Source: Streptomyces sp. NL15-2K (GTDB lineage: Bacteria > Actinomycetota > Actinomycetes > Streptomycetales > Streptomycetaceae). From it: 64,000 nucleotides of DNA. The stretch is from assembly GCF_030551255.1 (NCBI RefSeq), contig NZ_CP130630.1, forward strand, positions 3,081,501-3,145,500. The letters are read 5' to 3'. Of the stretch, positions 8,107-60,822 are shown piece after piece. The notes below the pieces were generated by a model. It saw only the letters and a list, made by a program, of their open reading frames with translations. It was not told the DNA's origin and did no database searches. The translations under genes were made by a program, and so were the position numbers. Positions within the stretch are counted from its first letter, which is position 1. Every line of letters starts with the position of its first letter.

Positions 8107-8144
8107 CTACATCTCTCCCGGGTTGTACGGAGACTGCTTGCCGA

Positions 8145-8288: not shown

Positions 8289-8317
8289 TCGTCAAAGTGA
8301 CGTGAAGCGTTTATGAT
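8289..8317 (+). promoter_or_regulatory. candidate nadA promoter with overlapping palindrome
   Basis: TCGTCA (8289-8294), a 17-bp spacer and TATGAT (8312-8317) resemble a sigma-70-type promoter 42 bases before the nadA start. A dyad CGTCA-AAG-TGACG (8290-8302) overlaps the -35, as expected for a repressor site. No factor can be assigned from sequence. Confidence 0.45.
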
Positions 8318-8358
8318 AGATAGCGTCAGTTCGACGAAAAGTAGAAAGGGTGCGTGTC

Positions 8359-17274: not shown

Positions 17275-18095
17275 GTACGACGCCGTTCACCGGGGGCGCG
17301 GCGGATGCCTGGCTGAACAAGACGGGTGGGCTGCGGGATGTCGTACGCCAGGAACTGGTGGCCCGGCAGCTCGACGAGCAGATAGTCGGGCGGTTCCCGG
17401 TCGGGCGGCGGCTGCGGGTGCTCGACGTGGGGATGGGCCAGGGCACACAGGCGCTGCGTCTGGCTCGGGCCGGGCATCAGGTGACGGGCCTGGAGCAGGA
17501 CACCAAGATGATCGCCGCGGCCCGTGAGGCCCTGTCCGCCGAGCCGGAGGGCATCCGGGAGCGGATGCGGATCTTCGAGAGCGACGGGCGGGACACCGGC
17601 GTGCACTTCCTGCCGGGCAGCTTCGACGTGGTGCTGTGCCACGGCGTGCTCATGTACGTCGAGGAGCCGGATCCGCTGCTGGCGGGGCTGGCGCGGATGC
17701 TGGCCCACGGCGGGCTGCTGTCGCTGCTCGTACGCAACGGCGACGCGCTGGCGATGCGGCCGGGACTGTCCGGCAACTGGGCGTCGGCGCTCGGCGCCTT
17801 CGACACCACCGCCTACCTCCCCCATTCTCGAACAAACTCGAACGGGGGGACCCCCATCCGGCTGGGGCTCGACGTGCGGGCCGACCGGCTGGAGACGCTC
17901 ACCGCGACGCTCGCGGGCATCGGGGCGCCGCTGCAGGCGTGGTACGGAGTGCGGGTCTTCACCGACACGGCGGCCGACGGCGTGGAGATCCCGGCCGACG
18001 TGGAGGCGCTGCTGGCGGTCGAGGAGCGGGCCGGGCGGACGGATCCGTATCGGGGAGTCGCGGCGTTGCTGCATCTGTGCGGGCTGCGCGGCTGA
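17271..18095 (+). CDS. class I SAM-dependent methyltransferase, apparent CTG start
   Basis: About 274 residues with a Rossmann SAM-binding motif LDVGMGQGTQALRLARAG near residue 50, followed by FDVVLCHGVLMYVEEP; substrate unknown. The homologous region starts at STTPFTGG, directly after a CTG (17271) that overlaps the TGA of the upstream gene and has GGGGAG six bases before it. No ATG or GTG lies in frame nearby; the next GTG (about 17356) would remove conserved sequence. I therefore infer coupled initiation at CTG. Residues about 183-196 (LPHSRTNSNGGTPI) are encoded by the 42-bp repeat. Confidence 0.8.
   Translation: MSTTPFTGGAADAWLNKTGGLRDVVRQELVARQLDEQIVGRFPVGRRLRVLDVGMGQGTQALRLARAGHQVTGLEQDTKMIAAAREALSAEPEGIRERMRIFESDGRDTGVHFLPGSFDVVLCHGVLMYVEEPDPLLAGLARMLAHGGLLSLLVRNGDALAMRPGLSGNWASALGAFDTTAYLPHSRTNSNGGTPIRLGLDVRADRLETLTATLAGIGAPLQAWYGVRVFTDTAADGVEIPADVEALLAVEERAGRTDPYRGVAALLHLCGLRG
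17817..17858. repeat. 42-bp repeat, copy B, in frame within a methyltransferase gene
   Basis: Reverse-orientation copy of the 7546-7587 repeat, with a more diverged centre. Its length is exactly 14 codons and it keeps the reading frame of the methyltransferase, adding LPHSRTNSNGGTPI. It sits between a conserved TTAY and RLGLDVRADR, probably in a surface loop. Confidence 0.8.
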
Positions 18096-18151
18096 GCCCG
18101 TTCGGGTGTGCAGTACAAGCCGGACATTCACCCTAAAGGGAAACTCGGGGC

Positions 18152-19213
18152 ATGGATGCCTCTCGTACCCGTGCCCTGCGGCTGGTCGCCGTGCTCGCGT
18201 GTTCCGTCGCGCTCCTGTCCGGATGCACCGGATCGGATTCCTCCGGCGAGCGGGAGAACCCGACCACACAGGCCGCCGTTCCCGCCGTGGACAGCGATCT
18301 GCAGAGCGACTACCAGAAGGTGATCAGGGACGTTCTGCCGTCGGTCGTGCAGATCCAGGCCAGGAGCGATCTCGGGTCGGGCGTCGTGTACGACGGCCGG
18401 GGGCACATCGTCACCAACGCCCATGTCGTCGGGGACGAGAAGACCTTCCAGGTGACGACCGCCAACAGCGAGGACGCCCTCGACGCGACACTCGTCTACT
18501 CGTACCCCGAGCAGGATCTCGCCGTCATCAAGCTGGACCGGGTTCCGGGCGGGCTGAGGGCCGCGTCCTTCGGGGACTCCTCGAAGGTGGAGGTGGGGCA
18601 GATCGTCCTCGCCATGGGCTCGCCGCTCGGGCTGTCGTCCAGCGTGACGCAGGGGATCGTGTCGGCGACCGGGCGGACCGTCACCGAGACCCAGGCGGAC
18701 GGCGGTACGGGCGCGACCATCGCCGACATGGTGCAGACCTCGGCCGCCATCAACCCCGGCAACAGCGGGGGTGCGCTGGTGAACCTCGACGGGCAGGTCA
18801 TCGGCATCCCGACGCTCGCCGCCACCGACCCCGGCCTCGGGGACAGCGCGGCGCCCGGCATCGGGTTCGCGATCCCGGCGTCGACGGTGAGGACCATCGC
18901 CGACCAGATCGTCAAGCAGGGCAGGGTCACCGACTCGGGACGGGCCGGGCTCGGCATCACCGGTCGTACGGTCGTCGACGACGACTACCGGGCCGCCGGG
19001 GTGGCCGTGGTCGAGGTGACGGGCGGTGGGGCCGCCGACAAGGCCGGCATCGAGGCCGGGGACGTCATCACCAAGTTGGGTGACACGGACATCACCACCA
19101 TCACCTCGCTGACCGAGGCGCTGGCTGCCCGGAGGCCGGGCGACAGGACATCGGTCACCTTCACGCGCAACGGCGATGAGAGAACCGTGGAGGTGACCCT
19201 GGGTGAGCGGTGA
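18152..19213 (+). CDS. HtrA/DegP-like serine protease with PDZ domain, lipoprotein
   Basis: A 353-residue S1C protease exported as a lipoprotein (lipobox VALLSGC, Cys near 25). The catalytic triad is intact: His in VTNAHVV (about 90), Asp in EQDLAVIKL (about 121) and Ser in NPGNSGGAL (about 205). A PDZ domain (about 270-350; GGGAADKAGIEAGDVITKLG) would bind exposed C-termini of substrates. Likely role: quality control of proteins at the outer face of the membrane. The ATG at 18152 has CGGGG close upstream. A hairpin follows at 19217. Confidence 0.92.
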   Translation: MDASRTRALRLVAVLACSVALLSGCTGSDSSGERENPTTQAAVPAVDSDLQSDYQKVIRDVLPSVVQIQARSDLGSGVVYDGRGHIVTNAHVVGDEKTFQVTTANSEDALDATLVYSYPEQDLAVIKLDRVPGGLRAASFGDSSKVEVGQIVLAMGSPLGLSSSVTQGIVSATGRTVTETQADGGTGATIADMVQTSAAINPGNSGGALVNLDGQVIGIPTLAATDPGLGDSAAPGIGFAIPASTVRTIADQIVKQGRVTDSGRAGLGITGRTVVDDDYRAAGVAVVEVTGGGAADKAGIEAGDVITKLGDTDITTITSLTEALAARRPGDRTSVTFTRNGDERTVEVTLGER

Positions 19214-19267: not shown

Positions 19268-19483
19268 CTACGCCTCCTCGGCCGCGCGCAGGCTCATCGG
19301 GCCGTAGATCTCCGTGGAGTCCTCGAACAGCCGCACCTGCTCCGCGCCGCCTTCGAGCAGTGCCTTCCAGTGCTCCCCGAGCCAGGATTCGGCATCCCCC
19401 TGCGTGGTGAATTCCTCGGGCTGCACCGCGGGCTGGACCTCCGCCCCGTCGGCCTTCTCGAATCGCCACGTCCATGCCGCCAT
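19268..19483 (-). CDS. small conserved hypothetical protein
   Basis: A 71-residue soluble acidic protein (MAAWTWRFEKADGAEVQP to SLRAAEEA). ATG 19483 is set by GGAGG seven bases upstream; a longer frame to 19645 runs into the repeat at 19621 and is unlikely. No domain is recognised. I recall very similar short proteins in other streptomycetes, which supports a real gene. Function unknown. Confidence 0.75.
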   Translation of the reverse strand: MAAWTWRFEKADGAEVQPAVQPEEFTTQGDAESWLGEHWKALLEGGAEQVRLFEDSTEIYGPMSLRAAEEA

Positions 19484-19620
19484 GTACGCCTCCAAGGTGT
19501 CAGCAGTGCAGAGCAGGGTCGGATCTTGGTCCGACTCCTCTCCGCAGCCTATTCGCTCCGCTGGGTGCGCAGGTGAAAGACCTTGGGTGATCTGCCGTGT
19601 GCGGGCCGGTTGAGGGTTGA

Positions 19621-19668
19621 TCGCGCCCACGCGGCGGAGCCGCATATCGATACGGCCCCGCGCCCCTT
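19621..19668. repeat. 48-bp interspersed repeat, copy 2
   Basis: Same orientation and 46 of 48 bases identical to 2621-2668. It ends 51 bases before the cobU start, so both copies sit just upstream of a plus-strand gene. Confidence 0.7.
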
Positions 19669-19719
19669 AAGGGGCGTCTCGATCGCGCAAGGTCATAAGG
19701 GACCGGCGAAAATCGAGTC

Positions 19720-20922
19720 GTGGAACTCACTCTGCTTGGCACCGGTGCCCCCGCGGGGCTGCCCCGTCCCTCCTGTCCCTGTGCGACCTGTGCCACCGCG
19801 CTCGGCGCGGATGCCCGGGCGGCGACCGCGCTGCTCGTGGACGGGACGCTGCTGCTGGACCTGACACCCGGGGCGGCGTTCGCGGCCGCCCGGGCGGGGC
19901 ATTCGCTGGGCGGCGTACGGCAGGTGCTGCTGTCGCATCCGCACGAGGGGCCGGCGGTCGAGGTATCGGCGGGGCTGCCGCAGCCCGGGCGGGTGCCGGA
20001 CGGGCGGGAGTTGGCCCTGCTGACGGGCCATCGGGTGCGGGCCGTGGCGATGGACGCGCCCGGGACCGGGTACGCGGTGACCGGCCCGGACGGGCAGCGG
20101 CTGCTGTACCTGCCGCCGGGGGGTGCGCCGGCCGGTCTCGAGAAGGGGGCCGTCGAGACGTACGACGTCGTCCTCACCGACGTCGTGGGCCGGCCGGACG
20201 CCCTGGCCAAGCTGCGGGCGGTGGGAGCGCTGGGCCCGACGACCGACGTGATCGCCGTACATCTCGACCACGACGTGCCGCCGGGGGCCGAGGTGCGGCG
20301 GCGGCTGGCCGCGGCGGGGGCGCGGGCCGTACCGGACGGGACGACGCTGGTGGTGGGTGTGTACGAGGACGTGCCGGATGTGCCGCGGCGGACGCTGGTG
20401 CTGGGCGGGGCGCGCTCGGGGAAGTCGTTGGAGGCCGAGCGGCGGCTGGAGGCCTTCCCGGACGTGCTGTACGTGGCGACCGGCGGGTCCCGCAACGGCG
20501 ACGGCGAGTGGGCCGCGCGCGTCGCCGCGCACCGGGAGCGACGGCCGGGTTCGTGGCGTACGGCCGAGACGTGCGACCTGGTGCCGCTGCTGAAGGACGA
20601 CGGGCCGCCGTTGCTCATCGACTGTCTGTCCCTGTGGCTGACGGACGCGATGGACGCCGTCGGGGCGTGGGACGACGCGGAGTGGGCCGACGGCGGGGAG
20701 CGGGAGCTGCGCGCGCGGGTGCGGGAGTTGACGGGGGCGGTGCGGGCCACGCGGCGGACCGTGGTCGCCGTGTCGAACGAGGTGGGGTCGGGAATCGTGC
20801 CGGCCACGGCGTCCGGGCGCCGCTACCGGGACGAACTCGGGCGCCTGAACGCGGCGTTCGCGAGCGAGTGCGAGCAGGTGCTGCTGGTGGTGGCGGGGCA
20901 GGCGCTGGTGCTACGGGGCTGA
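19720..20922 (+). CDS. cobU: adenosylcobinamide kinase/guanylyltransferase with N-terminal degenerate hydrolase domain
   Basis: Residues about 225-400 are CobU/CobP, which phosphorylates adenosylcobinamide and attaches GMP. The P-loop is LGGARSGKS (near residue 228), and LLIDCLSLWL and VSNEVGSGIVP are family motifs. Residues 1-215 resemble a metallo-beta-lactamase/PhnP fold (MELTLLGTGAPAGLPRPSCP), but the metal motif reads HPHEGP instead of HxHxDH, so it is probably not a metal hydrolase. CobU alone is about 180 residues, so this is a fusion. Start GTG 19720. cobT and cobS are nearby and complete the nucleotide-loop pathway. Confidence 0.88.
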   Translation: MELTLLGTGAPAGLPRPSCPCATCATALGADARAATALLVDGTLLLDLTPGAAFAAARAGHSLGGVRQVLLSHPHEGPAVEVSAGLPQPGRVPDGRELALLTGHRVRAVAMDAPGTGYAVTGPDGQRLLYLPPGGAPAGLEKGAVETYDVVLTDVVGRPDALAKLRAVGALGPTTDVIAVHLDHDVPPGAEVRRRLAAAGARAVPDGTTLVVGVYEDVPDVPRRTLVLGGARSGKSLEAERRLEAFPDVLYVATGGSRNGDGEWAARVAAHRERRPGSWRTAETCDLVPLLKDDGPPLLIDCLSLWLTDAMDAVGAWDDAEWADGGERELRARVRELTGAVRATRRTVVAVSNEVGSGIVPATASGRRYRDELGRLNAAFASECEQVLLVVAGQALVLRG

Positions 20923-21609
20923 AGCATCGCGTCGGGCGATCAGGCGGTAGGTGTTCGAGAAGCGGGTGAGGCTGAGCAGCGGTGCCAGGGCGAGGTCGAT
21001 CGCCTTGGCCGCGGCCAGCAGCGGAAAGACCACCCATGACTTGGGCAGGACCACGGACAGCGCGCCCGACAGGTCGTGGGGGATGTGCGCGATCCTGCGG
21101 TCCCTCTTGACGATCGTGCAGCCCAGGGACTCCAGCTCCGTGCGGAGTTCGTCCAGGGACAGCAGGTGGAGGGGGCCGGGCCGGGCCCCCGGGGACCATC
21201 GCCTGCCGAGGAGTACGGCGAAGACGCTCCGCGGGTCGGGGGCTTCGACGAGCAGGTGGCCGCCGGGGCGCAGGACGGCCACGGCGGCACGCAGTTCCTG
21301 GCGGGGGTCCCGGGTGTGCGGCAGGTGATGGAGCATGCTGACGACGTCGTAGCGGGCGCGCAGCCGGGCCGTGATCCGCGGGTCCGTCAGATGACCCACG
21401 TGCGCCTCCTCGATGCGCTCGGCCAGGCGGGCCCAATCGACCCTGGGGTTGGCGTCCAGGCCGTCGAAGGACGTGTAGGGGAACAGTTCTCTGGCCGCTT
21501 CGGGCAGGTGGGCCTCGCCCGTGCCCACGTCCAGCCAGCTCTCCGGCTCGGGGAACGGCAGCATCGCCCGGACCGAGGAGCGAAGGCGTCGTGCGGGCGG
21601 TGCGGACAT
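20911..21609 (-). CDS. class I SAM-dependent methyltransferase
   Basis: A 232-residue methyltransferase. SAM motif I is SWLDVGTGEAHLPEAAREL (near residue 25); YDVVSMLHHLPHTRDP and LRPGGHLLVEAPDP are further family motifs. The C-terminal part contains a possible membrane-associated stretch (WVVFPLLAAAKAIDLALAPL). I use ATG 21609, with GGGAG five bases upstream, not the longer frame to 21798. Its 3' end overlaps the end of cobU by 12 bases (convergent). Substrate unknown; a cobalamin role is not supported. Confidence 0.82.
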   Translation of the reverse strand: MSAPPARRLRSSVRAMLPFPEPESWLDVGTGEAHLPEAARELFPYTSFDGLDANPRVDWARLAERIEEAHVGHLTDPRITARLRARYDVVSMLHHLPHTRDPRQELRAAVAVLRPGGHLLVEAPDPRSVFAVLLGRRWSPGARPGPLHLLSLDELRTELESLGCTIVKRDRRIAHIPHDLSGALSVVLPKSWVVFPLLAAAKAIDLALAPLLSLTRFSNTYRLIARRDASAP

Positions 21610-21769
21610 GGGCGGCTCCCGGAGACGTGCGACAATCCGCTGCAAAACGGAACGTATGGGATGCCGATCTTGAGTGCAACGACGCCGCACGGTCGTCGTA
21701 CGGCTGTCGTGGGGCTGTCGCGGCGACGGGGCACTGACCTGTTCGATCAGGGCCGGTACTGTTCGGCGA

Positions 21770-22879
21770 ATGAGCTCGCTTAATCTCGACGACTTCACCG
21801 ATCTGATCGAGCGCCCCGACGGTGGTGTGCGCCGCGATGCCGAGGCGCGCCGGGAACGTCAGATCGTGCCGCCCGGAGCGCTGGGCCGCCTCGACGACCT
21901 GGGTGAGTGGCTGGCCGCGGCGCAGTCCGCCGTACCGGTGCGACCGATCGAACAGCCGCGGGTCGTGCTGTTCGCCGGCGACCACGGAATCGCCGAACTG
22001 GGCGTCTCGGCACGGCCCGCGGGCACGGCCGACCAGCTGGTGCGGGGGGTCCTGGAGGGCGGCCGTCCGGTGTCCGTGCTCGCCCGGCGGCTCGGGGTTC
22101 CCGTGCGGGTGGTCGACATGGCGCTGGACTGCGATCCCGGGACGCTGCCGGGCGATGTCGTACGGCACCGGGTGCGGCGCGGCAGCGGGCGGATCGACCT
22201 CGAGGACGCGCTGACCCTGGAGGAGGCGGAGGCCGCCTTCCGGGCCGGGATGGCGGTGGCCGACGAGGAGGTCGACTCCGGTACGGATCTGGTGGTGCTC
22301 GGCGATGTGAGCGTGGGCGGGACCACCGCGGCGGGTGTGCTGGTCGCCGCGCTGTGCGGGACCGACGCGTCCGTCGTGACCGGGCGGGGCGGTCAGGCGA
22401 TCGACGACCTGGTGTGGATGCGCAAGTGCGCGGCGATCCGGGACGCGCTGCGGCGGGCCCGGCCCGTGCTCGGGGACCAGTTGCAGTTGCTGGCGACGGT
22501 GGGCGGGGCCGACCTCGCCGCGATCACGGGTTTCCTGTTGCAGAGCGCGGTGCGGAAGATGCCGGTGATCCTGGACGGGGTTGTCGTGGCCGCCTGTGCG
22601 CTGGTGGGCCAGCGGATCGCGTTCCGGGCGCCGGACTGGTGGCTGGCCGGACAGAACAGCGGGGAGCCCGGACAGGGAAAGGCCCTGGACCGGATGGCCC
22701 TCGAACCGCTGCTCGACCATGGGGTGACGGTCGGGGAGGGCGCGGGGGCGCTGCTGGCGTTGCCGCTCGTGCAGGCCGCGGCGGCGCTGGCCGCCGAGCT
22801 GCCCGAGAAGCCGGAGGTCCCCGAGAAGGCGGAGGAGTCCGCGGAGCCGGAGGAGTCCGGCACGTCGGAGTGGACGTAG
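21770..22879 (+). CDS. cobT: nicotinate-nucleotide-dimethylbenzimidazole phosphoribosyltransferase
   Basis: Makes alpha-ribazole phosphate, the lower-ligand precursor of cobalamin. The 369-residue protein shows FAGDHGIAELGVSA, LGDVSVGGTTAAG and the C-terminal catalytic VGEGAGALLAL region with its Glu. A Glu/Pro-rich tail of about 30 residues (after AAALAAELPEK) is likely disordered. ATG 21770 is used; the ribosome site is weak. It lies divergently from the methyltransferase ending at 20911. Confidence 0.94.
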   Translation: MSSLNLDDFTDLIERPDGGVRRDAEARRERQIVPPGALGRLDDLGEWLAAAQSAVPVRPIEQPRVVLFAGDHGIAELGVSARPAGTADQLVRGVLEGGRPVSVLARRLGVPVRVVDMALDCDPGTLPGDVVRHRVRRGSGRIDLEDALTLEEAEAAFRAGMAVADEEVDSGTDLVVLGDVSVGGTTAAGVLVAALCGTDASVVTGRGGQAIDDLVWMRKCAAIRDALRRARPVLGDQLQLLATVGGADLAAITGFLLQSAVRKMPVILDGVVVAACALVGQRIAFRAPDWWLAGQNSGEPGQGKALDRMALEPLLDHGVTVGEGAGALLALPLVQAAAALAAELPEKPEVPEKAEESAEPEESGTSEWT

Positions 22880-49690: not shown

Positions 49691-50611
49691 ATGCAGAGCC
49701 GCTTCCGAAGCGATCGCGGCCTGACCGTGCGCATGACGGTCACGCTGTTCCTGCTCGGACTCCTGTACGTGGCCTTCATGGCCGCGTTGATCGTGTTGCT
49801 GAAGTCGTGGGTGCTGGTCGTCGTGATCGCGGCGGCGATGCTCGGCGCGCAGTACTGGTTCTCCGACCGGATCGCGCTGTTCGCGATGCGCGGGCGCGTG
49901 GTGGAGCGCGAGGAGTATCCCGAGCTGCACGCGGTGGTCGACCGGCTGTGCGCGATCGCCGACATGCCCAAGCCGGTGGTCGCCGTGTCGGAGATGGACA
50001 TGCCGAACGCGTTCGCGACCGGCCGGAATCCCGACAACGCCGTCGTCTGCGTGACCACCGGTCTGCTACGGCGGCTGGACCCCGCGGAGCTGGAGGGCGT
50101 GCTCGCGCACGAGCTGTCGCACGTGGCGCACAAGGACGTCGCCGTGATCACGATCGCGTCCTTCCTGGGCGTGATCGCGGGGCTGATCGTGCGGTTCGCC
50201 TTCTACTCGCAGCTGTTCGGCGGCGGGCGGCGGGACCAGAACACCGCCGTCGTCTTCGCCGCCGTGATGGGCGTGTCGGCGGCCGTGTACGCGATCAGCT
50301 TCCTGCTGATCCGGGCCCTGTCCCGGTACCGGGAGCTGGCGGCTGACCGGGCGGCGGCGCTGCTCACCGGCCGTCCCTCGGCACTGGCGTCCGCGCTGAC
50401 CAAGGTCTCGGGCGACATCGCCCGGATCCCGACCAAGGACCTGCGGACCGCGCAGGCCTTCAACGCCTTCTACTTCACCCCGGCGCTGGGCTCCGAGCCG
50501 GGCATCGCGCACCTCTTCTCGACCCACCCGAGCCTGGAGCAGCGGCTGGAACAGCTCGGGCGCATCTCCGGCGAGCTGGGCGAGGCGGCCACCCCGGGGA
50601 GGGCGGACTGA
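49691..50611 (+). CDS. htpX: HtpX-like M48 membrane metalloprotease
   Basis: A 306-residue zinc protease of the cell membrane involved in turnover of damaged membrane proteins. Two N-terminal helices are followed by the zinc motif VLAHELSHVAHKDV (HELSH near residue 139), two more helices (VITIASFLGVIAGLIVRFAF, and AAVMGVSAAVYAISFLLIRA), and RYRELAADRAAALLTG with the third zinc ligand. The next gene, pspAB, starts three bases after its stop, so both belong to a stress response unit. Confidence 0.92.
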   Translation: MQSRFRSDRGLTVRMTVTLFLLGLLYVAFMAALIVLLKSWVLVVVIAAAMLGAQYWFSDRIALFAMRGRVVEREEYPELHAVVDRLCAIADMPKPVVAVSEMDMPNAFATGRNPDNAVVCVTTGLLRRLDPAELEGVLAHELSHVAHKDVAVITIASFLGVIAGLIVRFAFYSQLFGGGRRDQNTAVVFAAVMGVSAAVYAISFLLIRALSRYRELAADRAAALLTGRPSALASALTKVSGDIARIPTKDLRTAQAFNAFYFTPALGSEPGIAHLFSTHPSLEQRLEQLGRISGELGEAATPGRAD

Positions 50612-50613: not shown

Positions 50614-51198
50614 ATGGGGCTGCTGGACATCCTGCTCGGGCGGACGAAACCGGTCGCGCCCGACCTCGACCAGCTCTTCGCGCTGCCGTCGGCGGCGGTG
50701 ACCCTGGAGGCGGCCGCCTCCTTCACCCCGACCGGGCGGGGCGCGGTGTGCTTCGCCACGGTCGAGGGCGCCGCCTTCGAACAGACGCACCGCGAGGTCC
50801 AGGCCCTGCTGGACGCGGACATCGACCGCGAAGGACCTCCGGTGGAGCTGCGGCGGGACGCCTACGGGTACTCGTGGCTGGTGTCGGAGCGCACACCCGA
50901 CCAACTGCCGCTCCTGGTCAACGACCTGCACGCGGTGAACAGTTCGATGGAGGTCAACGGCTTCGGCCCGCAACTGCTGTGCTCACTGGCCGGCTTCACG
51001 GACCCGGAAGGCCGTCGGCTCGCGCTGGTCTACCTCTACAAGCGCGGCTCCTTCTACCCGTTCGCGCCGCTGCCCGGCGAGGCGCAGCGGCGCGACAACG
51101 CGCTGGAACTGAGGGTGAAGGCGGCGCTCGCGAACGACCTGCGCATCGAGCAGGACCTCAACCGCTGGTTCCCGGTGTGGGGCGCCCCCGGTCTGTGA
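50614..51198 (+). CDS. pspAB: PspA-associated protein PspAB
   Basis: A 194-residue soluble protein with the PspAB pattern (MGLLDILLGRTKPVAPDLDQ at the N-terminus, GYSWLVSERTPDQLPLLVND in the middle). In actinobacteria these proteins are found next to pspA or to htpX-type proteases and are thought to take part in membrane-stress handling. It is translationally close to htpX (two-base gap). A 20-bp tandem duplication begins directly after its stop (51199-51238). Confidence 0.85.
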   Translation: MGLLDILLGRTKPVAPDLDQLFALPSAAVTLEAAASFTPTGRGAVCFATVEGAAFEQTHREVQALLDADIDREGPPVELRRDAYGYSWLVSERTPDQLPLLVNDLHAVNSSMEVNGFGPQLLCSLAGFTDPEGRRLALVYLYKRGSFYPFAPLPGEAQRRDNALELRVKAALANDLRIEQDLNRWFPVWGAPGL

Positions 51199-51239
51199 CG
51201 AGGGGCGGCCCTACGGGTCGAGGGCCGGCCCTACAGGTC

Positions 51240-51530
51240 TCACTTGCCCTTCTCGCGGGCCTGCCGACGGGACTCGAAGGGGCGCTCGCGGCGGTAGCGG
51301 CGCTCCCACTTGGCCTGCCGGTCACGGCGGTCGCGGTACGCGCGGTAGTCGCCGGGCACGGGCCCCGAGGCTCCACCCGACGATGCTCCTCCCGAGGAGG
51401 ACGTCGAGGACGCGCCGCGCCCGTACTGCACGTACAGGAAGAGCACGGCGACGGCGGCGAGCCACCAGACGTGGTTTCCGAATCCCAGAACGACCAGGAC
51501 GACGGTCCCGGATATGACGATGGTGCCCAT
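51240..51530 (-). CDS. small membrane protein with basic tail
   Basis: A 96-residue protein with one or two N-terminal helices (IVISGTVVLVVLGFGNHVWW, LAAVAVLFLYVQYG), a Ser/Gly linker and a C-terminal Arg-rich segment (RDRRDRQAKWERRYRRERP). Function unknown. ATG 51530. The 229 bases between it and tpg hold no gene or obvious repeat. Confidence 0.72.
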   Translation of the reverse strand: MGTIVISGTVVLVVLGFGNHVWWLAAVAVLFLYVQYGRGASSTSSSGGASSGGASGPVPGDYRAYRDRRDRQAKWERRYRRERPFESRRQAREKGK

Positions 51531-51759
51531 GACGGGCCTCCGTGGGCGTGGGTTGGTCCGAGCGGTGATCGGTGCGGTGTCCTGGCGGGCGCTTGGGGAG
51601 GGCGTCCGGCCGACGGTGCGTAGAGAGTAGCCCCCGGTCCGCAGGGCGGTGCCGATCCTGCGGGAAGCGGTGTGGCTGACTCCGCAACGCTTGTCCAGCG
51701 TAGGGAGGCGGTCACTCCGGGTGCATCTTGTTTTTCCCGGGGAGGCGGCGGACCAGTAC

Positions 51760-52317
51760 CTACAGGTCGAAGTCGAGGTGCTCGATGTCGGTGAAGCGGA
51801 CCTCCTCCAGTTGGCCGGCGCGGCGGCCGCCGTCCTGGAAGTAGACCTCCTTGAGTGCTTCGGCGGCGATCTCCCGCAGCCGCTGGTCGGTGGCGCCCTG
51901 CTCCTGGGCGTCGAAGAGGCGGGCGGCGTACTGCGGCGGCAGCGCGACCGTCAGGTGCCGGAGGCGGTCCTCATCGGTGGAGCCGATCGGGGCGGTGTAG
52001 CCGATGCGGGCGCGGGTGTCGATGACGATGCCGCCGGTGGTCGCCGCCCGTTCCTTGGCCTTGGCGCGGATCTGCGGCTGCCACCGCTTCTTCACCTCGG
52101 CTTCCATGCGGGCGGCGAGGTCCGGGCGCGGCTTCTTGATCTGGTCCCTCACGTACCGCTCGACGGTGCGCTGGGAGATCCGCAGCATCTGGGCGACGGC
52201 CCTGGTGCCCTTGAGCTGCTTGACCAGGTACCTCATCCGCGCGCCGGCCGACTTCGGGATCGGGCGGGTGAACGCCTTCTGCACCGCCTGTTCCAGGCCG
52301 TCCCCGAACATGCTCAT
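51760..52317 (-). CDS. tpg: telomere terminal protein (Tpg family)
   Basis: A 185-residue protein that closely matches Streptomyces Tpg, the protein joined to the 5' ends of linear replicons and used as primer for end patching. Features: MSMFGDGLEQAVQKAFTRP, an HTH-like TRAVAQMLRISQRTVERYV (about 37-57), KKRWQPQIRAKAKERAATTG, VALPPQYAARLFDAQEQGA and the C-terminal DIEHLDFDL. ATG 52317 lies seven bases after the tap stop, so tap and tpg form an operon. Its presence in a conserved chromosomal interior, not at a visible telomere, is unusual. Confidence 0.88.
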   Translation of the reverse strand: MSMFGDGLEQAVQKAFTRPIPKSAGARMRYLVKQLKGTRAVAQMLRISQRTVERYVRDQIKKPRPDLAARMEAEVKKRWQPQIRAKAKERAATTGGIVIDTRARIGYTAPIGSTDEDRLRHLTVALPPQYAARLFDAQEQGATDQRLREIAAEALKEVYFQDGGRRAGQLEEVRFTDIEHLDFDL

Positions 52318-52324
52318 CGCCTGG

Positions 52325-54526
52325 CTACTCCCCGCTGTCCTGGTCGGTGACGGTGCCGTCCTTGATGTACCGGGCGAGGTTGAGCTCCGGTGCGTCGAAC
52401 TGCTCGCGGACGCCCTCGCCCCACAGCACGCTCTGGGTGCCCTCCCACTTGACCAGGCCCGGGTTCACGCCGAGTTTGAAGCCGCCCGGCAGCGGCTTGC
52501 CGTCCCGGTAGGGCAGGAAGTCCAGCGGCGATTCGCCGTCGACCGCGTACACGGCGCAGTCGGAGAGGATCGCGACCGGGTACTGGCCGGTGAAGGCGGC
52601 GTGCTTGAGGATCTTGCGGTGCATGTTGACCCGCGTGCGGGAGATGACGGCGGCGCGGATGTCCGGGCGCCACGTCGGCCGGGCCAGCGCCCGCCACGGC
52701 TCGCCGGGCCGCCAGCCCTCGCCCCGTGGCCGCTCGCGCAGCTTGCCGAGGCCCCCCTTGACGGTCGCCTTGATCGCGGACACCACGATCGCCAGTTCCG
52801 GGTCGCGCTGCCGGTAGCCGTCCATCGCCTTCAGGAAGTCCTCCGGCGACAGGTCGGCGGGCACCCCGAGGTCGGCCATGGTGGCGATGTACGCGTCGCG
52901 CAGGCGGTTGTACCAGGCGTCCAGGTAGCGGCCGTTGTCGTAGCGCACCCACGCCTGAACCGGGCGCACTTCGTACCCGAGCTCCACCGCGTAGGCGACG
53001 GTCGGCGTCGCGTACCAGGCCGGCCCCTCGGGCCGCTCGCCCTTCGGTGTGAACGGACTGGGCAACAGCTCGCTGTCCAACTCCGCCCACTCCTTGCCGA
53101 CCTTCACCCGCGACAGGTCGACGTGGGAGAGGTCGACCAGCCACGAGCCGGGCAGCTTCGGGTCGAACACCGGCTGCTTGATGGGCGTCGGCTTGCCGAG
53201 GCCGACGACCAGGCCGTTCGCTCCGGCGGCGAAGGCCATGTTCACGTCGATGCCCACCAGGTTCCGGCGCAGGCATTCGGCGTCGGTGAGCGGACGCGCC
53301 CAGTCGTACGCCTCCTCGAACAGCTTCTCCGCCGGGCCGCGGATGTGGAAGCGCGGCAGGTTCTTCAGCAGCGGATGCCCGTCGGGCGCCTCACACGGCG
53401 CGCAGTCCACCGGGTCCTTGCCCAGGCTGCCGGGGTTGTGCTCGGAGTGCCGTTTGCCGTCGGCGTCGGGCTCGGAGGCGCGGGTCGGCGGGTGCAGCGC
53501 GGTCATCAGCTCCAGGCCCGTGACGGCGGTGGAGCCGCGCGGCGTCATCACCCGGGACGCGTACGTGCCCAGGAGCCGGGCGAGTTCCGCCGGCGGAAGC
53601 TGCCCGGCCTCGCCCCAGTGGCGGGTGTCGAGCGCGTGCCATGACGGGATACACAGCTGCACGCAGTTCCGCTCCGAGCCCTGCGCCGGGCGGTAGATCC
53701 GCGCCCACGGTCCGAACCCGCGCTTCGTCAGCTTCCACTCCGCGCGCGCCAGTTGCTTGATGACCTTGTGGCCCTCCGGGATCCGCCCGGCAAGCCGCTC
53801 CTCCTCGGTGAGGGCGACCGGCAGACCGTAGCGCTCCAGCGCGGATTCGGTGAGTACGAGCAGCGGGTCGGCGTCCTTGCCCGGCCCGGACAGCTTCGGC
53901 TGCCCCAGCCTCGCCTCCTTGAGGGTCCAGTCGACCAGGGACGGGAGGGACTTGGCGGGTACGTCCAGGACCAGGCCGCCGACGCAGTACGCGAGGACCT
54001 GGCCGTCCGCGACGTCGACGACCGCGAGCGGCCCGTTCCCGAAACGCGGGTCGGCGCCGTCTGCCGGGGTGTTGGCGGGAGCGGCCTTCTTCGCACCCGG
54101 GCGGCGCGACGCGGCGGTCGGGGCCGTGGTGGCGGGGTGGGGGCGGATGTTCTCGGCAGCGGTCACGGCCGCTGCCTCGGGCGCCGGGGCCGCGGACGAT
54201 GTCCGCGCTTGCGTCGCCGGGGCGGGCGCGCCGGTGGAGGTCTCGGGCGCCGCCGTGTCCTGCCCGGGCGCGCCGGCGTTGGGGTCGGCGGGATAGAGCT
54301 CCGCGAGCTTGTTCAGCAGCCGCGCGTACGCGTCACGCTCCGGCGGCCGCGGCTCCGTCTTGCCGGACTCCCAGCCACTGACCGTGGCGCGGCGGACCTT
54401 CAGCGCCGCGGACACCTCGTCCAGCGTCAGGCCGTGCGCCTGTCGCAGCCGCTTGCGTTCCACCGGCGGCGGCAGCGGGGACCGGGATGCGACCAACGCG
54501 TCGACCGCGTCGAACAACTCGGACAT
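52325..54526 (-). CDS. tap: telomere-associated protein (Tap family)
   Basis: A 733-residue protein whose size, N-terminal helix-turn-helix and linkage to tpg identify it as Tap, which binds telomeric 3' overhangs and recruits Tpg. The HTH lies at about 20-65 (LRQAHGLTLDEVSAALKVRR, ATVSGWESGK). A Pro/Ala-rich linker (about 85-160) is followed by a large conserved region with NLVGIDVNMAFAAGANGLVV and VVSAIKATVKGGLGKLRERP. ATG 54526 has AGGAGG eight bases upstream. A palindrome at 54583 may serve autoregulation. Confidence 0.88.
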   Translation of the reverse strand: MSELFDAVDALVASRSPLPPPVERKRLRQAHGLTLDEVSAALKVRRATVSGWESGKTEPRPPERDAYARLLNKLAELYPADPNAGAPGQDTAAPETSTGAPAPATQARTSSAAPAPEAAAVTAAENIRPHPATTAPTAASRRPGAKKAAPANTPADGADPRFGNGPLAVVDVADGQVLAYCVGGLVLDVPAKSLPSLVDWTLKEARLGQPKLSGPGKDADPLLVLTESALERYGLPVALTEEERLAGRIPEGHKVIKQLARAEWKLTKRGFGPWARIYRPAQGSERNCVQLCIPSWHALDTRHWGEAGQLPPAELARLLGTYASRVMTPRGSTAVTGLELMTALHPPTRASEPDADGKRHSEHNPGSLGKDPVDCAPCEAPDGHPLLKNLPRFHIRGPAEKLFEEAYDWARPLTDAECLRRNLVGIDVNMAFAAGANGLVVGLGKPTPIKQPVFDPKLPGSWLVDLSHVDLSRVKVGKEWAELDSELLPSPFTPKGERPEGPAWYATPTVAYAVELGYEVRPVQAWVRYDNGRYLDAWYNRLRDAYIATMADLGVPADLSPEDFLKAMDGYRQRDPELAIVVSAIKATVKGGLGKLRERPRGEGWRPGEPWRALARPTWRPDIRAAVISRTRVNMHRKILKHAAFTGQYPVAILSDCAVYAVDGESPLDFLPYRDGKPLPGGFKLGVNPGLVKWEGTQSVLWGEGVREQFDAPELNLARYIKDGTVTDQDSGE

Positions 54527-54582
54527 TCGACACCTCCTGCCCACACCCTAGCCCCTTAAGCGTACGGACAGCGCATATTTCC

Positions 54583-54599
54583 CGTACGCATTGCGTACG
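54583..54599 (-). promoter_or_regulatory. perfect palindrome upstream of tap
   Basis: CGTACGCA-T-TGCGTACG, 57-73 bases before the tap start, with another CGTACG at 54561-54566. The symmetry and the HTH of Tap suggest autoregulation; unproven. Confidence 0.5.
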
Positions 54600-54632
54600 T
54601 AGCGCGTGCTGCGAGGAGTGAGGCGACACCGC

Positions 54633-54682
54633 GTCCTATGCGACACCGTGTCCTATGCGACGCCGACGCCGTGTCCTATGCG
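54633..54682. repeat. three direct repeats of GTCCTATGCG
   Basis: Copies at 54633, 54650 and 54673, each with CCG before it. The copy at 54673 contains the stop codon (CTA = TAG on the minus strand, 54676-54678) of the upstream small gene; the others lie between it and tap. Confidence 0.7.
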
Positions 54683-55032
54683 GTGCCGGGACCGTCGAGG
54701 AGCCGAAGCAGCACGGCGGCCTCCGCACGGAGCCGAGCGGCGCGGTCGGCATGCGCGGTCAACCGCGCCGCCGCCTCCAGTCGCTCGGCGGCCTCGGCGC
54801 GTACGACATCGACCACATGACGCTCGCTCAGCTCACGCCGCGCCGCTTCGGTGACGCCGACACCGACCGGCGACTGCTCGAGGGCCAAGCCGCGGAGGTC
54901 GGCGTCGTCCACCGGCACCGCCTCAGCGTTGTCCAGGGCGGCAAGCGTTGCGCACAGTGCGCTCACCGCGGCCTTGTCACGGGCGCGCATCGCTTCCGGC
55001 AGTGCTTGACGCATACGAAGACGTAAGGACAT
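54676..55032 (-). CDS. GatB/YqeY-like small protein
   Basis: A 118-residue helical protein. The N-terminus MSLRLRMRQALPEAMRARDK resembles the start of the YqeY/GatB C-terminal tRNA-binding domain family, shortened by about 30 residues. ATG 55032 with AAGG about eight bases upstream. Function unknown; it lies upstream of tap on the same strand but is separated by about 150 bases with repeats and a palindrome, so it probably has its own transcription unit. Confidence 0.62.
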   Translation of the reverse strand: MSLRLRMRQALPEAMRARDKAAVSALCATLAALDNAEAVPVDDADLRGLALEQSPVGVGVTEAARRELSERHVVDVVRAEAAERLEAAARLTAHADRAARLRAEAAVLLRLLDGPGTA

Positions 55033-55082
55033 GCCGGTGACCTTATGGCCGTACCTCCGGACTCACAACGCGAGTTCCGAAA

Positions 55083-55117
55083 GTGCCGGGCACCCCGAAA
55101 CACAGGGCACCCGGCAC
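55083..55117 (-). terminator. hairpin terminator
   Basis: GTGCCGGG (55083-55090) pairs with CCCGGCAC (55110-55117); CACCC/GGG(C) bases can extend it. It follows the minus-strand gene ending at 55125. Confidence 0.6.
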
Positions 55118-55124
55118 AACCGGC

Positions 55125-55439
55125 TCAGCGCGAGTAACGCATGAACGCCCGCACCATGTGGCACGTCGTGTCCGACGGCGGGTGGACGCCGATCATCTCC
55201 GCCGTGCTCCGGATCGTCTCGTTGCGGGCCTGGTTGGGCACGTACACGCCCGAGTCGAGCAGGGCGATCGCGAGGCGCATCGCCTTGAGGCGGCGGTTGT
55301 GAGTGACGTACCACTCACGCGGCCGCCCCGGCGGCAGCGGCCGCTTCTCCATGGGCGCGTACGGCATGTCGAGCAGGACGGGGCGCTTCGCGGTGGACTG
55401 GGTGGGCAACGGCTTCGACTTCAGAGCGGCAGCGGGCAC
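55125..55439 (-). CDS. hypothetical protein of the tap-tpg block
   Basis: A 104-residue basic protein (PLPPGRPREWYVTHNRRLKA, then a helical ARNETIRSTAEMIGVHPPSD). I place the start at GTG 55439 because AGGAGG lies exactly six bases before it; the ATG at 55445 touches that site and is unlikely. No family recognised. With the YqeY-like gene it sits at the edge of the tap-tpg block and may share its origin. Confidence 0.62.
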   Translation of the reverse strand: MPAAALKSKPLPTQSTAKRPVLLDMPYAPMEKRPLPPGRPREWYVTHNRRLKAMRLAIALLDSGVYVPNQARNETIRSTAEMIGVHPPSDTTCHMVRAFMRYSR

Positions 55440-55614
55440 AGGCATCCTCCTGTCGCGGTCAGGGCGCCGGCCCGGGGACTTCGGCGACCCCGGCGACACC
55501 CTCGAACACTGCTTCTATTCTACTGCCCGGCACTGACAATCGCCCCTGGCCACAAGGGCTTTCGGGGGTACTGTGACGCAGGTGGAGGACGGGTTTTCGC
55601 GTACCGTTGGCGGC

Positions 55615-55983
55615 ATGGAAATCTGGATCAATCCGGCCTGCTCGAAGTGCCGCAGCGCGATCGAACTCCTCGACGCCGAGGGCGCGGACTACACCGTCCG
55701 CCGCTATCTGGAGGACGTACCGAGCGAGGACGAGATCCGGGACGTGCTGGAGCGGCTTGGTCTCGAACCGTGGGACATCACCCGCACCCAGGAGGCCGTC
55801 GCCAAGGAGCTCGGAGTGAAGGAGTGGCCGCGGGACGAATCCTCGCGCGACCGCTGGGTCAAGGCCCTCGCCGAACATCCGAAGCTGATCCAGCGGCCGA
55901 TCATCACGGCGGACGACGGTACGGCGGTGGTGGGCCGCACCGACGAAGCCGTTCGGGATGCAGCGTCCCGAGTTGAGAGCTGA
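55615..55983 (+). CDS. ArsC/Spx-family thioredoxin-fold protein
   Basis: A 122-residue arsenate-reductase-like protein. The N-terminal active site reads NPACSKCRSAIELL, with two cysteines (CSKC) like many family members of unknown substrate, and RYLEDVPSEDEIRDVLERLG follows. The C-terminal LIQRPIITADDGTAVVGR with its Arg is typical. No arsenite transporter or ArsR gene is nearby, so a role in arsenic resistance is not supported. ATG 55615; a GTG at 55573 would add 14 residues. Confidence 0.85.
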   Translation: MEIWINPACSKCRSAIELLDAEGADYTVRRYLEDVPSEDEIRDVLERLGLEPWDITRTQEAVAKELGVKEWPRDESSRDRWVKALAEHPKLIQRPIITADDGTAVVGRTDEAVRDAASRVES

Positions 55984-56110: not shown

Positions 56111-56740
56111 ATGTCGCGCAGGAGAACACTCGGCACGAGAAAGAAGGCCGCGCTGCTGGTCGGCGCGGCGGCGGTCGCGGGAGGCGGTGCCTTCGTCATG
56201 GCGAGCACCTCGAACGCCGCGGGGCCGCAGTCCGCGGCGGACTCGGCCGTCTGCCAGGGGCTCGCCACCGCGCTCGGCAACAACCAGAAGTTCATCGACG
56301 GTCAGCGGGCCGCTCCGGACGCGCAGTCCGAGGCCAGGATCGCCAACCGCGAGGCGGTCATCGCGGAGATCCAGCGCAAGCAGGAGGCGTCCGGATGCGT
56401 GGTCGGGGAGTCGGCTCAGGACTCCCAGGCCGCGCAGCCCTCGCAGGCGGCCGAAGCCGCGCAGCCCCCGACGAGCGCCCCCGCGGCCACCGGTGAGCAG
56501 GTGTGCGACGGCTCGACCGTCACCCTGTCCGGCGAGGGCGGCGCCCCGGCCGCGTCCAGCAACCAGTTCCCGGCCGGTACGAAGCTGAAGGTCACCAACC
56601 TGGACAACGACAAGTCCACGACGGTGGAGGTCACTTCGGTCTCCGGCAGTTGCGCGCTGCTCAACAACGCGGCCTTCGAACAGGTCCGTGAGCCCGGCAA
56701 GTTCCTGATCCGCCGGGCCGTGATCGAGAAGGTGGGGTGA
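56111..56740 (+). CDS. secreted protein of unknown function
   Basis: A 209-residue exported protein. The signal peptide (RRRTLGTRKKAALLVGAAAV to STSNAAG) has an RR pair but no full Tat motif. The mature part has Cys in SAVCQGLATAL, ASGCVVGE, EQVCDGSTVTL and SGSCALLNN, probably two disulfides, with an Ala/Gln/Pro-rich linker (about 100-125) between two small domains. The C-terminal domain looks beta-rich. ATG 56111 with AGGAGA about seven bases upstream. Confidence 0.8.
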   Translation: MSRRRTLGTRKKAALLVGAAAVAGGGAFVMASTSNAAGPQSAADSAVCQGLATALGNNQKFIDGQRAAPDAQSEARIANREAVIAEIQRKQEASGCVVGESAQDSQAAQPSQAAEAAQPPTSAPAATGEQVCDGSTVTLSGEGGAPAASSNQFPAGTKLKVTNLDNDKSTTVEVTSVSGSCALLNNAAFEQVREPGKFLIRRAVIEKVG

Positions 56741-58362: not shown

Positions 58363-58465
58363 CGCCTGTTGACAGGCTCGCGGGCGACAAGCGCGGCGTT
58401 TCAGTGCCGCAGCGCCGCAGCACCCGCAAGTGCGCCTAGAGACCCACCCCCGAAGGATGTGGCCC

Positions 58466-59494
58466 GTGACCTTCAAGGCTGAGTACATCTGGATCGACGG
58501 CACCGAGCCGACGGCCAAGCTCCGTTCCAAGACGAAGATAATGGCCGGTGACGCCAAGGGTGCGGAGCTGCCGATCTGGGGCTTCGACGGGTCCTCCACG
58601 AACCAGGCCGAGGGCCACGCCTCGGACTGCGTGCTCAAGCCGGTCTTCTCCTGTCCCGACCCGATCCGTGGCGGCGACGACATCCTCGTCCTGTGCGAGG
58701 TCCTCAACATCGACATGACGCCGCACGAGTCCAACACGCGTGCCGCGCTCACCGAGGTCGCCGAGAAGTTCGCCTCCCAGGAGCCGATCTTCGGCATCGA
58801 GCAGGAGTACACCTTCTTCAAGGACGGCTACCCGCTCGGCTTCCCCAAGGGTGGCTTCCCGGCCCCGCAGGGCGGCTACTACTGCGGTGTCGGCGCGGAC
58901 GAGATCTTCGGCCGTGACATCGTCGAGGCGCACTTGGAGAACTGCCTCAAGGCGGGTCTCGCCATCTCCGGCATCAACGCCGAGGTCATGCCCGGCCAGT
59001 GGGAGTTCCAGGTCGGCCCGGTCTCCCCGCTGGAGGTCTCCGACCACCTGTGGGTGGCCCGCTGGCTGCTCTACCGCACCGCCGAGGACTTCGGCGTCGC
59101 CGCCACCCTGGACCCGAAGCCGGTGAAGGGCGACTGGAACGGCGCCGGTGCGCACACCAACTTCTCCACCAAGGCGATGCGCGAGGGCTACGACGCGATC
59201 ATCACCGCGGCCGAGTCGCTGGGTGAGGGCTCGAAGCCGCTCGACCACGTCAAGAACTACGGCGCCGGCATCGACGACCGTCTGACCGGTCTGCACGAGA
59301 CCGCCCCGTGGAACGAGTACTCGTACGGTGTCTCGAACCGTGGTGCCTCGGTCCGTATCCCGTGGCAGGTCGAGAAGGACGGCAAGGGCTACATCGAGGA
59401 CCGCCGTCCGAACGCCAACGTCGACCCGTACGTGGTGACCCGGCTGATCGTCGACACCTGCTGCTCCGCGCTGGAGAAGGCCGGCCAGGTCTGA
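58466..59494 (+). CDS. glnII: glutamine synthetase type II (eukaryote-like)
   Basis: Second glutamine synthetase, heat-labile type, found in streptomycetes and rhizobia. The 342-residue protein has AEYIWIDGTEPTAKLRSKTK at the N-terminus, LPIWGFDGSSTNQAEGHASD, the ATP-binding WNGAGAHTNFSTKAMR and the C-terminal RIPWQVEKDGKGYIEDRRPN. It is not adenylylated like GSI. GTG 58466 with AAGGA nine bases upstream. Its terminator is split by an IS30 insertion directly downstream. Confidence 0.96.
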   Translation: MTFKAEYIWIDGTEPTAKLRSKTKIMAGDAKGAELPIWGFDGSSTNQAEGHASDCVLKPVFSCPDPIRGGDDILVLCEVLNIDMTPHESNTRAALTEVAEKFASQEPIFGIEQEYTFFKDGYPLGFPKGGFPAPQGGYYCGVGADEIFGRDIVEAHLENCLKAGLAISGINAEVMPGQWEFQVGPVSPLEVSDHLWVARWLLYRTAEDFGVAATLDPKPVKGDWNGAGAHTNFSTKAMREGYDAIITAAESLGEGSKPLDHVKNYGAGIDDRLTGLHETAPWNEYSYGVSNRGASVRIPWQVEKDGKGYIEDRRPNANVDPYVVTRLIVDTCCSALEKAGQV

Positions 59495-59543: not shown

Positions 59544-60822
59544 GTGTCGTCGCAACACGTGGTTGTGTTGATCAGGCGGTGAGCAGTTTATGCAGGCGCT
59601 CGGCTGGGGTTTCCCGGCCGAGCGTTTTGCGTGGGCGGCCGTTCAGCTCGGCGGCGACGGCGTCGAGGTGCTCGCGGGTGTGGACGGCGAGGTCGGTGCC
59701 CTTGGGGAAGTACTGCCGGAGCAGGCCGTTGGTGTTCTCGTTCGAGCCGCGCTGCCAGGGGCTGGCCGGATCGCAGAAGTAGACCGGGACGTCGGTGGCG
59801 ATGGTGAACGCGCCGTGGCTGCCCATTTCCGAGCCCTGGTCCCACGTCAGGGACCGTCGCAGGTGGGACGGCAGGGTCCGGACCGTGGTGACCAGCGCGT
59901 CGCGAACGCTCTCGGCGCCGTGGTCGCCGGGCAGATGCAGGAGCATGACGTAGCGGGTGGCCCGCTCGACCAGGGTACCGATCGCCGACTTTCCGTCCTT
60001 GCCGATGATGAGATCGCCCTCCCAGTGCCCGGGGACCGCCCGGTCCTCGGCTTCGGCCGGACGCTCGCTGATCATGACCATCGGGGTGGCGAACCGGGGC
60101 CGGCGCTGCTGGGCCTGGCGGCGAGGTCTGCGCCGGGCGCGTCCGGTGCGCAGGGCGCGGGCCAGTTCGCGGCGCAGCTCACCCCGGCCCTGGACGTAGA
60201 GGGCCTGGTAGACCGTCTCGTGGACCACGTGCATCTCCGGCCGCTGGGGAAACCGTGCCCGCAGAGCCTGACAGATCTGCTCCGGGCTCCACCGTAGGTC
60301 CAGGTGGTCCTGGATGAAGTTGCGCAGCTGCGGGTTCTGGCCGATCTTCCCGGGCTTCGGACGGGGCCGGCGGGCATCGGCACGGGCCTGGGCCGCGTGC
60401 GGGCGGTACTGGCCGCCCGTCGGGTGACGGTTGCGGCGGATCTCCCGGCTGACCGTCGACGGGCTGCGGCCCAGCTCCGCGGCTATCGCCCGCACGGTCG
60501 CCTTCTCCCGCAGCCGGTCGGCGATGTGAATGCGGTCTTCCTCGCGCAGGTACCGGGACGGCCCGCAGGGCGCTGCCACCGCGTTGATCGGTGGCAGCGC
60601 CTTCCGGTTACCGTATGCCTGACGACCGTTGCGCCACTTCTGGCCGGTCCGGCGGTCGATCCCGACGATCCGGCACGCTTCCCGGTTGCTCACACCCTGC
60701 TGCATGAGCCGGGAGTATGCCTCCCGCTCCCTGGCGAGCTTCTTCCTGCCCTGAGGCCTCTCCCGGTCCTTACGGATCTCGAAGTCCATCGCACCCCTTG
60801 AACTGGGGTGTTGCAACGACTC
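59544..60822. mobile_element. IS30-family insertion sequence
   Basis: A 1279-bp element with imperfect 15-bp terminal inverted repeats (GTGTCGTCGCAACAC at 59544 and the complement of 60808-60822, 13 of 15 matching). CTAG flanks both ends (59540-59543 and 60823-60826), a probable target duplication or part of a palindromic target. It holds one transposase gene filling almost its whole length. The intact gene and good ends suggest a recent, possibly still mobile, insertion. Confidence 0.88.
59572..60789 (-). CDS. IS30-family transposase
   Basis: A 405-residue DDE transposase. The N-terminal HTH parts are SRLMQQGVSNREACRIVGID and IRAIAAELGRSPSTVSREIR-like sequence (VRAIAAELGRSPSTVSREI). The catalytic triad lies in GHWEGDLIIGKD (Asp), SLTWDQGSEMG (Asp) and WQRGSNENTNGLLRQYFPKG (Glu), the signature of the family. 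ATG 60789 with AGGGG five bases upstream; a TTG at 60816 is an alternative. Complete and unbroken, with normal host-like GC content. Confidence 0.95.
   Translation of the reverse strand: MDFEIRKDRERPQGRKKLAREREAYSRLMQQGVSNREACRIVGIDRRTGQKWRNGRQAYGNRKALPPINAVAAPCGPSRYLREEDRIHIADRLREKATVRAIAAELGRSPSTVSREIRRNRHPTGGQYRPHAAQARADARRPRPKPGKIGQNPQLRNFIQDHLDLRWSPEQICQALRARFPQRPEMHVVHETVYQALYVQGRGELRRELARALRTGRARRRPRRQAQQRRPRFATPMVMISERPAEAEDRAVPGHWEGDLIIGKDGKSAIGTLVERATRYVMLLHLPGDHGAESVRDALVTTVRTLPSHLRRSLTWDQGSEMGSHGAFTIATDVPVYFCDPASPWQRGSNENTNGLLRQYFPKGTDLAVHTREHLDAVAAELNGRPRKTLGRETPAERLHKLLTA

Follow-up and report, generated by a model that had tools for sequence, protein, structure and literature searches.

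The window analyzed here, a 64,000-nucleotide stretch of Streptomyces sp. NL15-2K, contains a complete tap-tpg operon, encoding a telomere-associated protein (Tap) and a terminal protein (Tpg), between pspAB and glnII. The tpg gene (51760-52317, minus strand; 185 amino acids) scores 300.6 bits against family NF047541 (cut-off 90), and tap (52325-54526, minus strand; 733 amino acids) scores 1123.5 bits against NF047542 (cut-off 600), spanning profile positions 1-695 of 695. The two genes share one orientation, with tap upstream of tpg and 7 bp between them. Both are intact and far exceed their family cut-offs, as the original prediction of a complete operon held. Tap carries an HTH_3 domain near its N-terminus (residues 25-72). 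Residues 113-115 of Tpg are Ser-Thr-Asp (STD), so that Ser113-Thr114 falls at the position of T114, described in the text of PMC3572947 as the deoxynucleotidylation site of Tpg; Tpg thus has the threonine at position 114 expected of a member of its family.

What sets this operon apart is its place in the chromosome. The window corresponds to positions 3081501-3145500 of the 12,347,483-bp main contig (C1) of a 12.40-Mb assembly in three contigs, and the pair lies 3.13 Mb from the left contig end and about 2.63 Mb from dnaA (at 5.77 Mb). It therefore lacks the subterminal position that is usual, if not obligatory, for archetypal tap-tpg; according to the text of PMC7205883, the distance of such operons from the ends is ‘often’ no more than several hundred kb. 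When 121 genomes of the genus, including that of NL15-2K, were searched for Tap, 84 gave a match at E ≤ 1e-60 and 80 exceeded the cut-off. Among 14 single-contig genomes, 17 of the 18 tap loci over the cut-off were no more than ~0.6 Mb from a contig end, the exception being a locus at 1.20 Mb in G090; this tally is approximate since sizes were rounded to 0.1 Mb, dnaA was placed in G090 alone of the 14, and genomes G007 and G118 were left out. Interior copies of tap in G007 and G118, and of tpg in a further genome (G400), were set aside, as dnaA at 0.24, 0.001 and 0.001 Mb, respectively, makes these look like rotated assemblies. A partial tap, under the cut-off, was observed 1.57 Mb inside another genome (G109). 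We found no case of tap-tpg in a chromosome core in the open-licence PMC literature text (PMC7205883, PMC8743542, PMC3572947, PMC5869714, PMC13152386, PMC4513846, PMC6662830 and PMC8743545) that was seen in part, gene positions in figures, tables and supplements being outside its scope.

Comparison with related chromosomes shows the pair to be absent from the corresponding interval. We fetched 29 loci around pspAB, nine from a pspAB search and 20 picked from among the genomes with both flanks on one contig in the matches listed, not all of which were taken; 27 of these have both flanks and were counted, whereas L144 and L151 have no right flank and were left out. None of the 27 contains tap, tpg or the YqeY-like gene that accompanies them in NL15-2K. 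The original note would have given up a recent acquisition if most Streptomyces core genomes had the block at this locus, and the comparison with these relatives does not refute it. Between the same flanks, 26 of the 27 relatives carry an AlkZ-like DNA glycosylase (PF06224), 15 an alpha/beta hydrolase, and 15 a DUF2252 protein, and the distance from pspAB to a conserved 106-amino-acid gene on the right ranges from 0.75 to 7.8 kb, marking a variable spot. A search with the full AlkZ-like protein did not find this gene in the NL15-2K genome at E ≤ 1e-5, although it did find it in three of three other genomes and in the source genome of the query. Because the gene is present in 26 of 27 relatives and was not found in NL15-2K, tpg-tap and the YqeY-like gene appear to stand in its place.

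Wider searches gave the same picture. A pspAB match was found in 25 of 31 genomes, and the 24 besides NL15-2K show neither tap nor tpg in loci that reach ~1.5 kb past pspAB. Queries across the left junction (51199-52000) and the right junction (54400-55500) were run against 392 genomes of the genus; among the matches listed, outside which a low-identity match could lie, only the NL15-2K genome matches across either junction, and the other rows match either a flank or the cargo. Conversely, none of the best 80 of 319 confirmed tap loci has htpX, pspAB, the two small flank genes, ArsC, SCO2207 or the YqeY-like gene within ≤8 kb on each side. Within this sample, the interior pair is strain-specific.

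The boundaries of the inserted DNA can be placed within a few tens of bases. On the left, similarity to the core ends at 51727-51753, depending on the relative, and similarity to other tpg genes starts at about 51760, placing the junction at 51735-51759; among the matches listed, the resemblance to other tpg loci ends no more than a few bases from the tpg stop codon. On the right, the junction falls at 55074-55085, between the end of a unit containing the YqeY-like gene (55070-55073) and the point at which the core resumes in the farthest-reaching relatives (55078-55085). The conserved left flank consists of htpX (49691-50611), pspAB (50614-51198, plus strand; PF22742, 255 bits) and a 96-amino-acid gene (51240-51530, minus strand), which adjoins pspAB in most relatives and is the last flank gene before the insertion. 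The right flank begins with the 106-amino-acid gene (55125-55445, minus strand) and continues with an ArsC-like reductase (55573-55983, plus strand), which scores 51 bits against PF03960 (cut-off 24) and 89.3 bits against TIGR00014, under the cut-off of 106. Farther right are a SCO2207-family gene (56111-56740) and glnII (58430-59494; NF041605), directly after which we observed an IS30-family transposase (59572-60816, minus strand).

Two small genes beside the operon had been described as unfamiliar, and they turn out to differ in origin. The 106-amino-acid gene is a conserved neighbor of arsC in relatives, while the YqeY-like gene (54676-55032, minus strand; 118 amino acids, or 104 in the version of the protein database) belongs to the inserted DNA, within the unit at 54656-55073. 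Its match to PF09424 is weak (E = 4e-4; 20.9 bits, under the cut-off of 27), and its relatives are named GatB/YqeY. A unit of ~420 bp resembling it occurs in ten other genomes that were fetched, at other places; relative to the first of the ten, similarity in the other nine reaches over 413-505 bp only, so the neighborhoods differ. The YqeY-like gene therefore seems, from these comparisons, to have its own history, as if it had moved alone. Three imperfect direct repeats of 17-23 bp (54623-54686) lie where the region upstream of tap meets it.

The inserted DNA gives few clues to how it entered. Profile scans recognized only tpg, tap and the YqeY-like gene between the flanks, and among these family profiles no integrase or transposase; no repeat pair joining both junctions was present among the repeats listed. 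Three telomere end queries did not match the window or a second region at 1.84 Mb (see below), while two control ends did match. The features of an integrated linear plasmid (plasmid genes, an integrase or att site, or a telomere at the boundary) were thus not found. The suggestion that the operon is a captured piece of a linear plasmid gains something from the nearest full-length Taps (86% identical), one of which is on a linear plasmid, but no plasmid gene, telomere sequence or shared block boundary supports it, leaving it possible and unproven. By analogy with break repair in another Streptomyces, discussed below, the DNA probably entered by illegitimate end-joining repair.

We asked what other tap and tpg genes the genome contains. 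Full-length, stop-free pairs over the cut-offs occur at two places only, the window and positions 19325-22122 of a 38,342-bp contig (C2), whose pair is 69% (Tap) and 66% (Tpg) identical to that of the window. The proposal that the interior operon might be the only set of this strain is therefore excluded. Both ends of C1 match C2, from positions 22,021 and 22,477 of C2 down to base 1. In a per-kilobase comparison the inner part of this match is perfect except for one gap, and the remaining mismatches and many gaps are confined to the tips of C1, in the last 7 kb on the left and the last 11 kb on the right. From the pattern of these differences, C2 is best read as a collapsed terminal inverted repeat, and the broken tap and tpg copies at the tips of C1 as poor assembly of genes that are open on C2; a 38-kb linear plasmid that has its sequence in common with the chromosome ends is a formal alternative. 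Stops and frame breaks in the copies at the C1 ends had first suggested that the terminal copies had decayed and left the interior pair as the sole intact set. This was ruled out, as the reading frames on C2 are open and C1 differs from C2, bar one gap, at the contig tips alone. A recent duplication of the terminal pair as the origin of the interior one was likewise ruled out, by the 69/66% identity and by a distance in the Tap tree of 0.76 between the window and C2 Taps, compared with 0.24 from the window Tap to its nearest relative.

The same genome search recovered a third, window-like tap at C1:1835925-1837473, which is broken (78-81% amino acid identity, split over two frames), with a lone tpg near it at 1.842 Mb and a transposase-like fragment a few kb away. 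The surrounding region (C1:1828000-1846000; tap at 7875-9471 and tpg at 14280-14813 of that region) also contains an ATP-binding cassette transporter and a terpene-synthase-like gene. A further lone tpg, 44% identical to the window Tpg, occurs with equal score at C2:670-1209, C1:20820-21359 and C1:12325770-12326309, inside the terminal repeat.

The resident chromosome ends and the window Tap appear to belong to different telomere classes. Starting at its own base 10, the far end of C2 is 78% identical to bases 10-444 in two S. anthocyanicus linear plasmid records (NZ_CP109572.1 and NZ_CP109231.1), and its last 250 bases, treated as single-stranded DNA, fold at z = −6.0 relative to shuffles. 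Because of this match to plasmid ends and the strong fold, the far end of C2 is probably a telomere that lacks at most a few bases. For the window Tap, the best full-length relatives are 86% identical, and one relative is 89% identical over 78% of the length (among the 7996 best-sharing candidates scored). One of the 86% Taps is encoded on a linear plasmid from strain NBC_01224; from base 14 onward, the end of this plasmid agrees with that of pSV2 at 28 of 28 bases. We take the start of pSV2 to represent the archetypal telomere class.

We then compared Tap type with telomere type in plasmid records. For window-like Taps, 40 of 482 matched records were listed, and 17 of these 40 contain archetypal-like telomere sequence, 16 of them at the record end. 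Sixteen of the 17 are among the matches listed to the archetypal query (15 at the end, including pSV2, which is the query itself, and one matching by 41 bases only), and the remaining record is that of NBC_01224. The internal case is NZ_CP108553.1, in which the archetypal-like sequence (22546-22689) lies 22.5 kb inside a linear plasmid record. None of the 40 has a full C2-class end. For C2-like Taps, five records of 81-89% identity were listed (six were counted in that band), of which three hold C2-class sequence, the two S. anthocyanicus plasmids at the end; none of the five is among the 60 of 82 archetypal records listed. Thus, Tap type is associated with telomere type across these few records, and, going by sequence similarity, the interior pair looks like a class that the chromosome's own end is not. 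The original suggestion of a second set with different telomere specificity accords with this association, which comes from few and partly related records. Within the NL15-2K genome, a 400-base archetypal end query found no match elsewhere, a weak negative in that it had no positive control; a 19-base archetypal pattern hit just two of 10 genomes, one of the hits lying at the start of a contig, and negatives by it are also weak.

The interior pair has kept promoter-like repeats. Upstream of tap, a presumed promoter or operator (54560-54600, minus strand) contains GTACG-like sites whose positions relative to the tap ATG are −72, −61 and −39, so that neighboring sites are 11 bp or a multiple of 11 bp apart. 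At least two GTACG sites were present in 81 of 87 tap upstream regions, compared with 0.9% of single-base shuffles, and 11 bp is the commonest spacing. This set comprised the window and 86 of 91 tap loci, kept when the match began from the first residues, and its regions are not independent, as some genomes occur twice. Such regularly spaced sites are a possible operator, for Tap itself or for another regulator. Along the window branch, the ratio of nonsynonymous to synonymous rates was 0.17-0.24 for tap and 0.20-0.34 for tpg (five triples each; small counts for tpg).

On balance, we favor the view that the interior pair is a captured second telomere-maintenance set of different telomere specificity, which occupies the place of AlkZ and acts in trans if it acts at all. 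A complete second operon and a YqeY-like gene would have taken a variable spot of the otherwise conserved interior and replaced the AlkZ-like gene. As in published systems, the window Tap would bind the folded 3′ overhang of archetypal telomeres and let Tpg prime end patching from Thr114. The resident ends would be of the other telomere class and be served by the set in the terminal repeat. Since the resident ends are presumably of another class with their own set, any work done by the interior set would be in trans, on archetypal replicons (incoming linear plasmids, for example), and this trans service is the likeliest role for it.

Several observations weigh against this view. The search for a donor led no closer than full-length Taps of 86% identity, with low tree support, and end joining is a guess by analogy. 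Among the window-like-Tap records, 23 of the 40 have no archetypal sequence among the 60 of 82 matches listed, and two of the 40 show similarity to an internal 99-base segment of the C2 end. According to the text of PMC8743542, archetypal ends are the most common class, and for this reason their link to window-like Taps is weak evidence. On the C2 side, the two S. anthocyanicus ends are almost identical to each other; in the S. nigrescens plasmid SNP1 the C2-class match is internal (18001-18238 of the fetched stretch) and covers only 21% of the query; and the left ends of the fourth and fifth C2-like-Tap records, which were checked, have no C2-class match. The Tap tree places the window and C2 Taps in one 32-member clade with a support of 0.2, and because both fall in this weakly supported clade, the tree does not cleanly separate the Tap classes. 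Finally, the low rate ratio applies to the entire branch back to the split from the 86% relatives, and much of that branch may predate the insertion. As a separate observation, the telomere-like sequence of S. nigrescens SNP1 lies ~13 kb from its C2-like tap, a placement that would fit an end enclosed by fusion.

The main rival is that the pair is a stranded passenger, which arrived by chance, has no present role, and will decay like the tap relic at C1:1835925-1837473. We regard this as a real though lesser possibility: that second window-like tap is already broken and C2 provides the chromosome with an intact set of its own, but the window genes are intact, their promoter-like repeats have been kept, and their rate ratio is low (which may mostly reflect time before the insertion). 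Somewhat less probable in our judgment is redundancy, in which the interior pair shares the upkeep of the resident ends with the pair in the terminal repeat, or stands by as its backup. Each pair exceeds both family cut-offs, Ser-Thr occupies the aligned priming site in the two Tpgs (residues 113-114 in the window, 114-115 on C2), and service in trans of one replicon's ends by the set of another is described in the text of papers on S. rochei (PMC6662830) and S. clavuligerus (PMC8743545). Yet an identity of only 69/66% between the pairs, and the occurrence of the two Tap types with different telomere classes, albeit in a small sample, speak against shared duty.

Two further explanations find little room. 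An assembly error, or contaminant sequence joined at the locus, is very unlikely; the C1 tips are rich in errors and the listed contamination estimate is 2.38, but such an artifact needs two wrong joins at one intergenic spot within one contig, both flanks are colinear with relatives, and the usual AlkZ gene was not found elsewhere in the genome. We give almost no credence to the idea that tap-tpg at this spot are ancestral core genes lost in other species, for which no supporting point was found and against which stand their absence from all 27 relatives at the spot and the absence of pspAB, htpX, arsC and SCO2207 beside the 80 named tap loci (≤8 kb on each side).

The captured second set can be compared with known systems. 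In gene order, gene sizes, the helix-turn-helix domain of Tap, Thr114 of Tpg and family scores, the window pair is like the archetypal Streptomyces operon (pSV2 and the chromosome of S. lividans and S. coelicolor), but unlike it lies 3.13 Mb inside the chromosome, with no telomere-like sequence found in the window. The text of PMC4513846 describes binding of the archetypal Tap to the folded 3′ overhang and priming that depends on Tap. The C2 set and its relatives on the S. anthocyanicus plasmids share families and gene order with the window pair; the C2 set differs from it in its 69/66% identity and in being seen with another telomere class. S. clavuligerus (pSCL4, pSCL2) and S. rochei (pSLA2-L, pSLA2-M) have more than one set or sets borne on plasmids. 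In S. clavuligerus two sets are suggested to serve different replicons (PMC8743545, in the text seen), and in S. rochei a plasmid set is reported to serve the chromosome ends in trans (PMC6662830, likewise). In these species the sets are on linear plasmids, whereas one of the sets of NL15-2K is built into the chromosome interior. Two tap copies are also mentioned for S. hygroscopicus chromosomes (PMC8743542).

A precedent for the mode of entry comes from S. ambofaciens, in which pieces of its own genome, from 30 bp to 18.8 kb, are described as inserted at repaired breaks, and in which arm replacement that removed the tap/tpg locus led to circular chromosomes (PMC5869714, in the text seen). Its authors speculate that incoming DNA could enter at breaks likewise. 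The breaks in that study were induced, and the portions of its text that we drew on do not mention tap-tpg insertion into the core. The mechanism of end maintenance itself is textbook; what is new in NL15-2K is the place in the core, the replacement of AlkZ and the apparent telomere mismatch.

Another history, which we consider rather unlikely, is that the chromosome formerly had archetypal ends and switched class by taking over a whole terminal repeat together with its tap-tpg, while an archetypal set built into the core was kept. If so, the lineage could maintain linear replicons of the archetypal type, or recover an archetypal end after losing an arm, without circularizing, and telomere maintenance would be uncoupled from the ends.

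More generally, the comparisons suggest a second class of telomere, for which the Tap-Tpg type of C2 and the S. anthocyanicus plasmids is a candidate cognate. The text of PMC7205883 suggests that selection could hold tap and tpg near the telomeres they serve. A natural strain with an interior and apparently mismatched set bears on whether interior placement rescues linearity after arm loss, and on how strict Tap-telomere specificity is.

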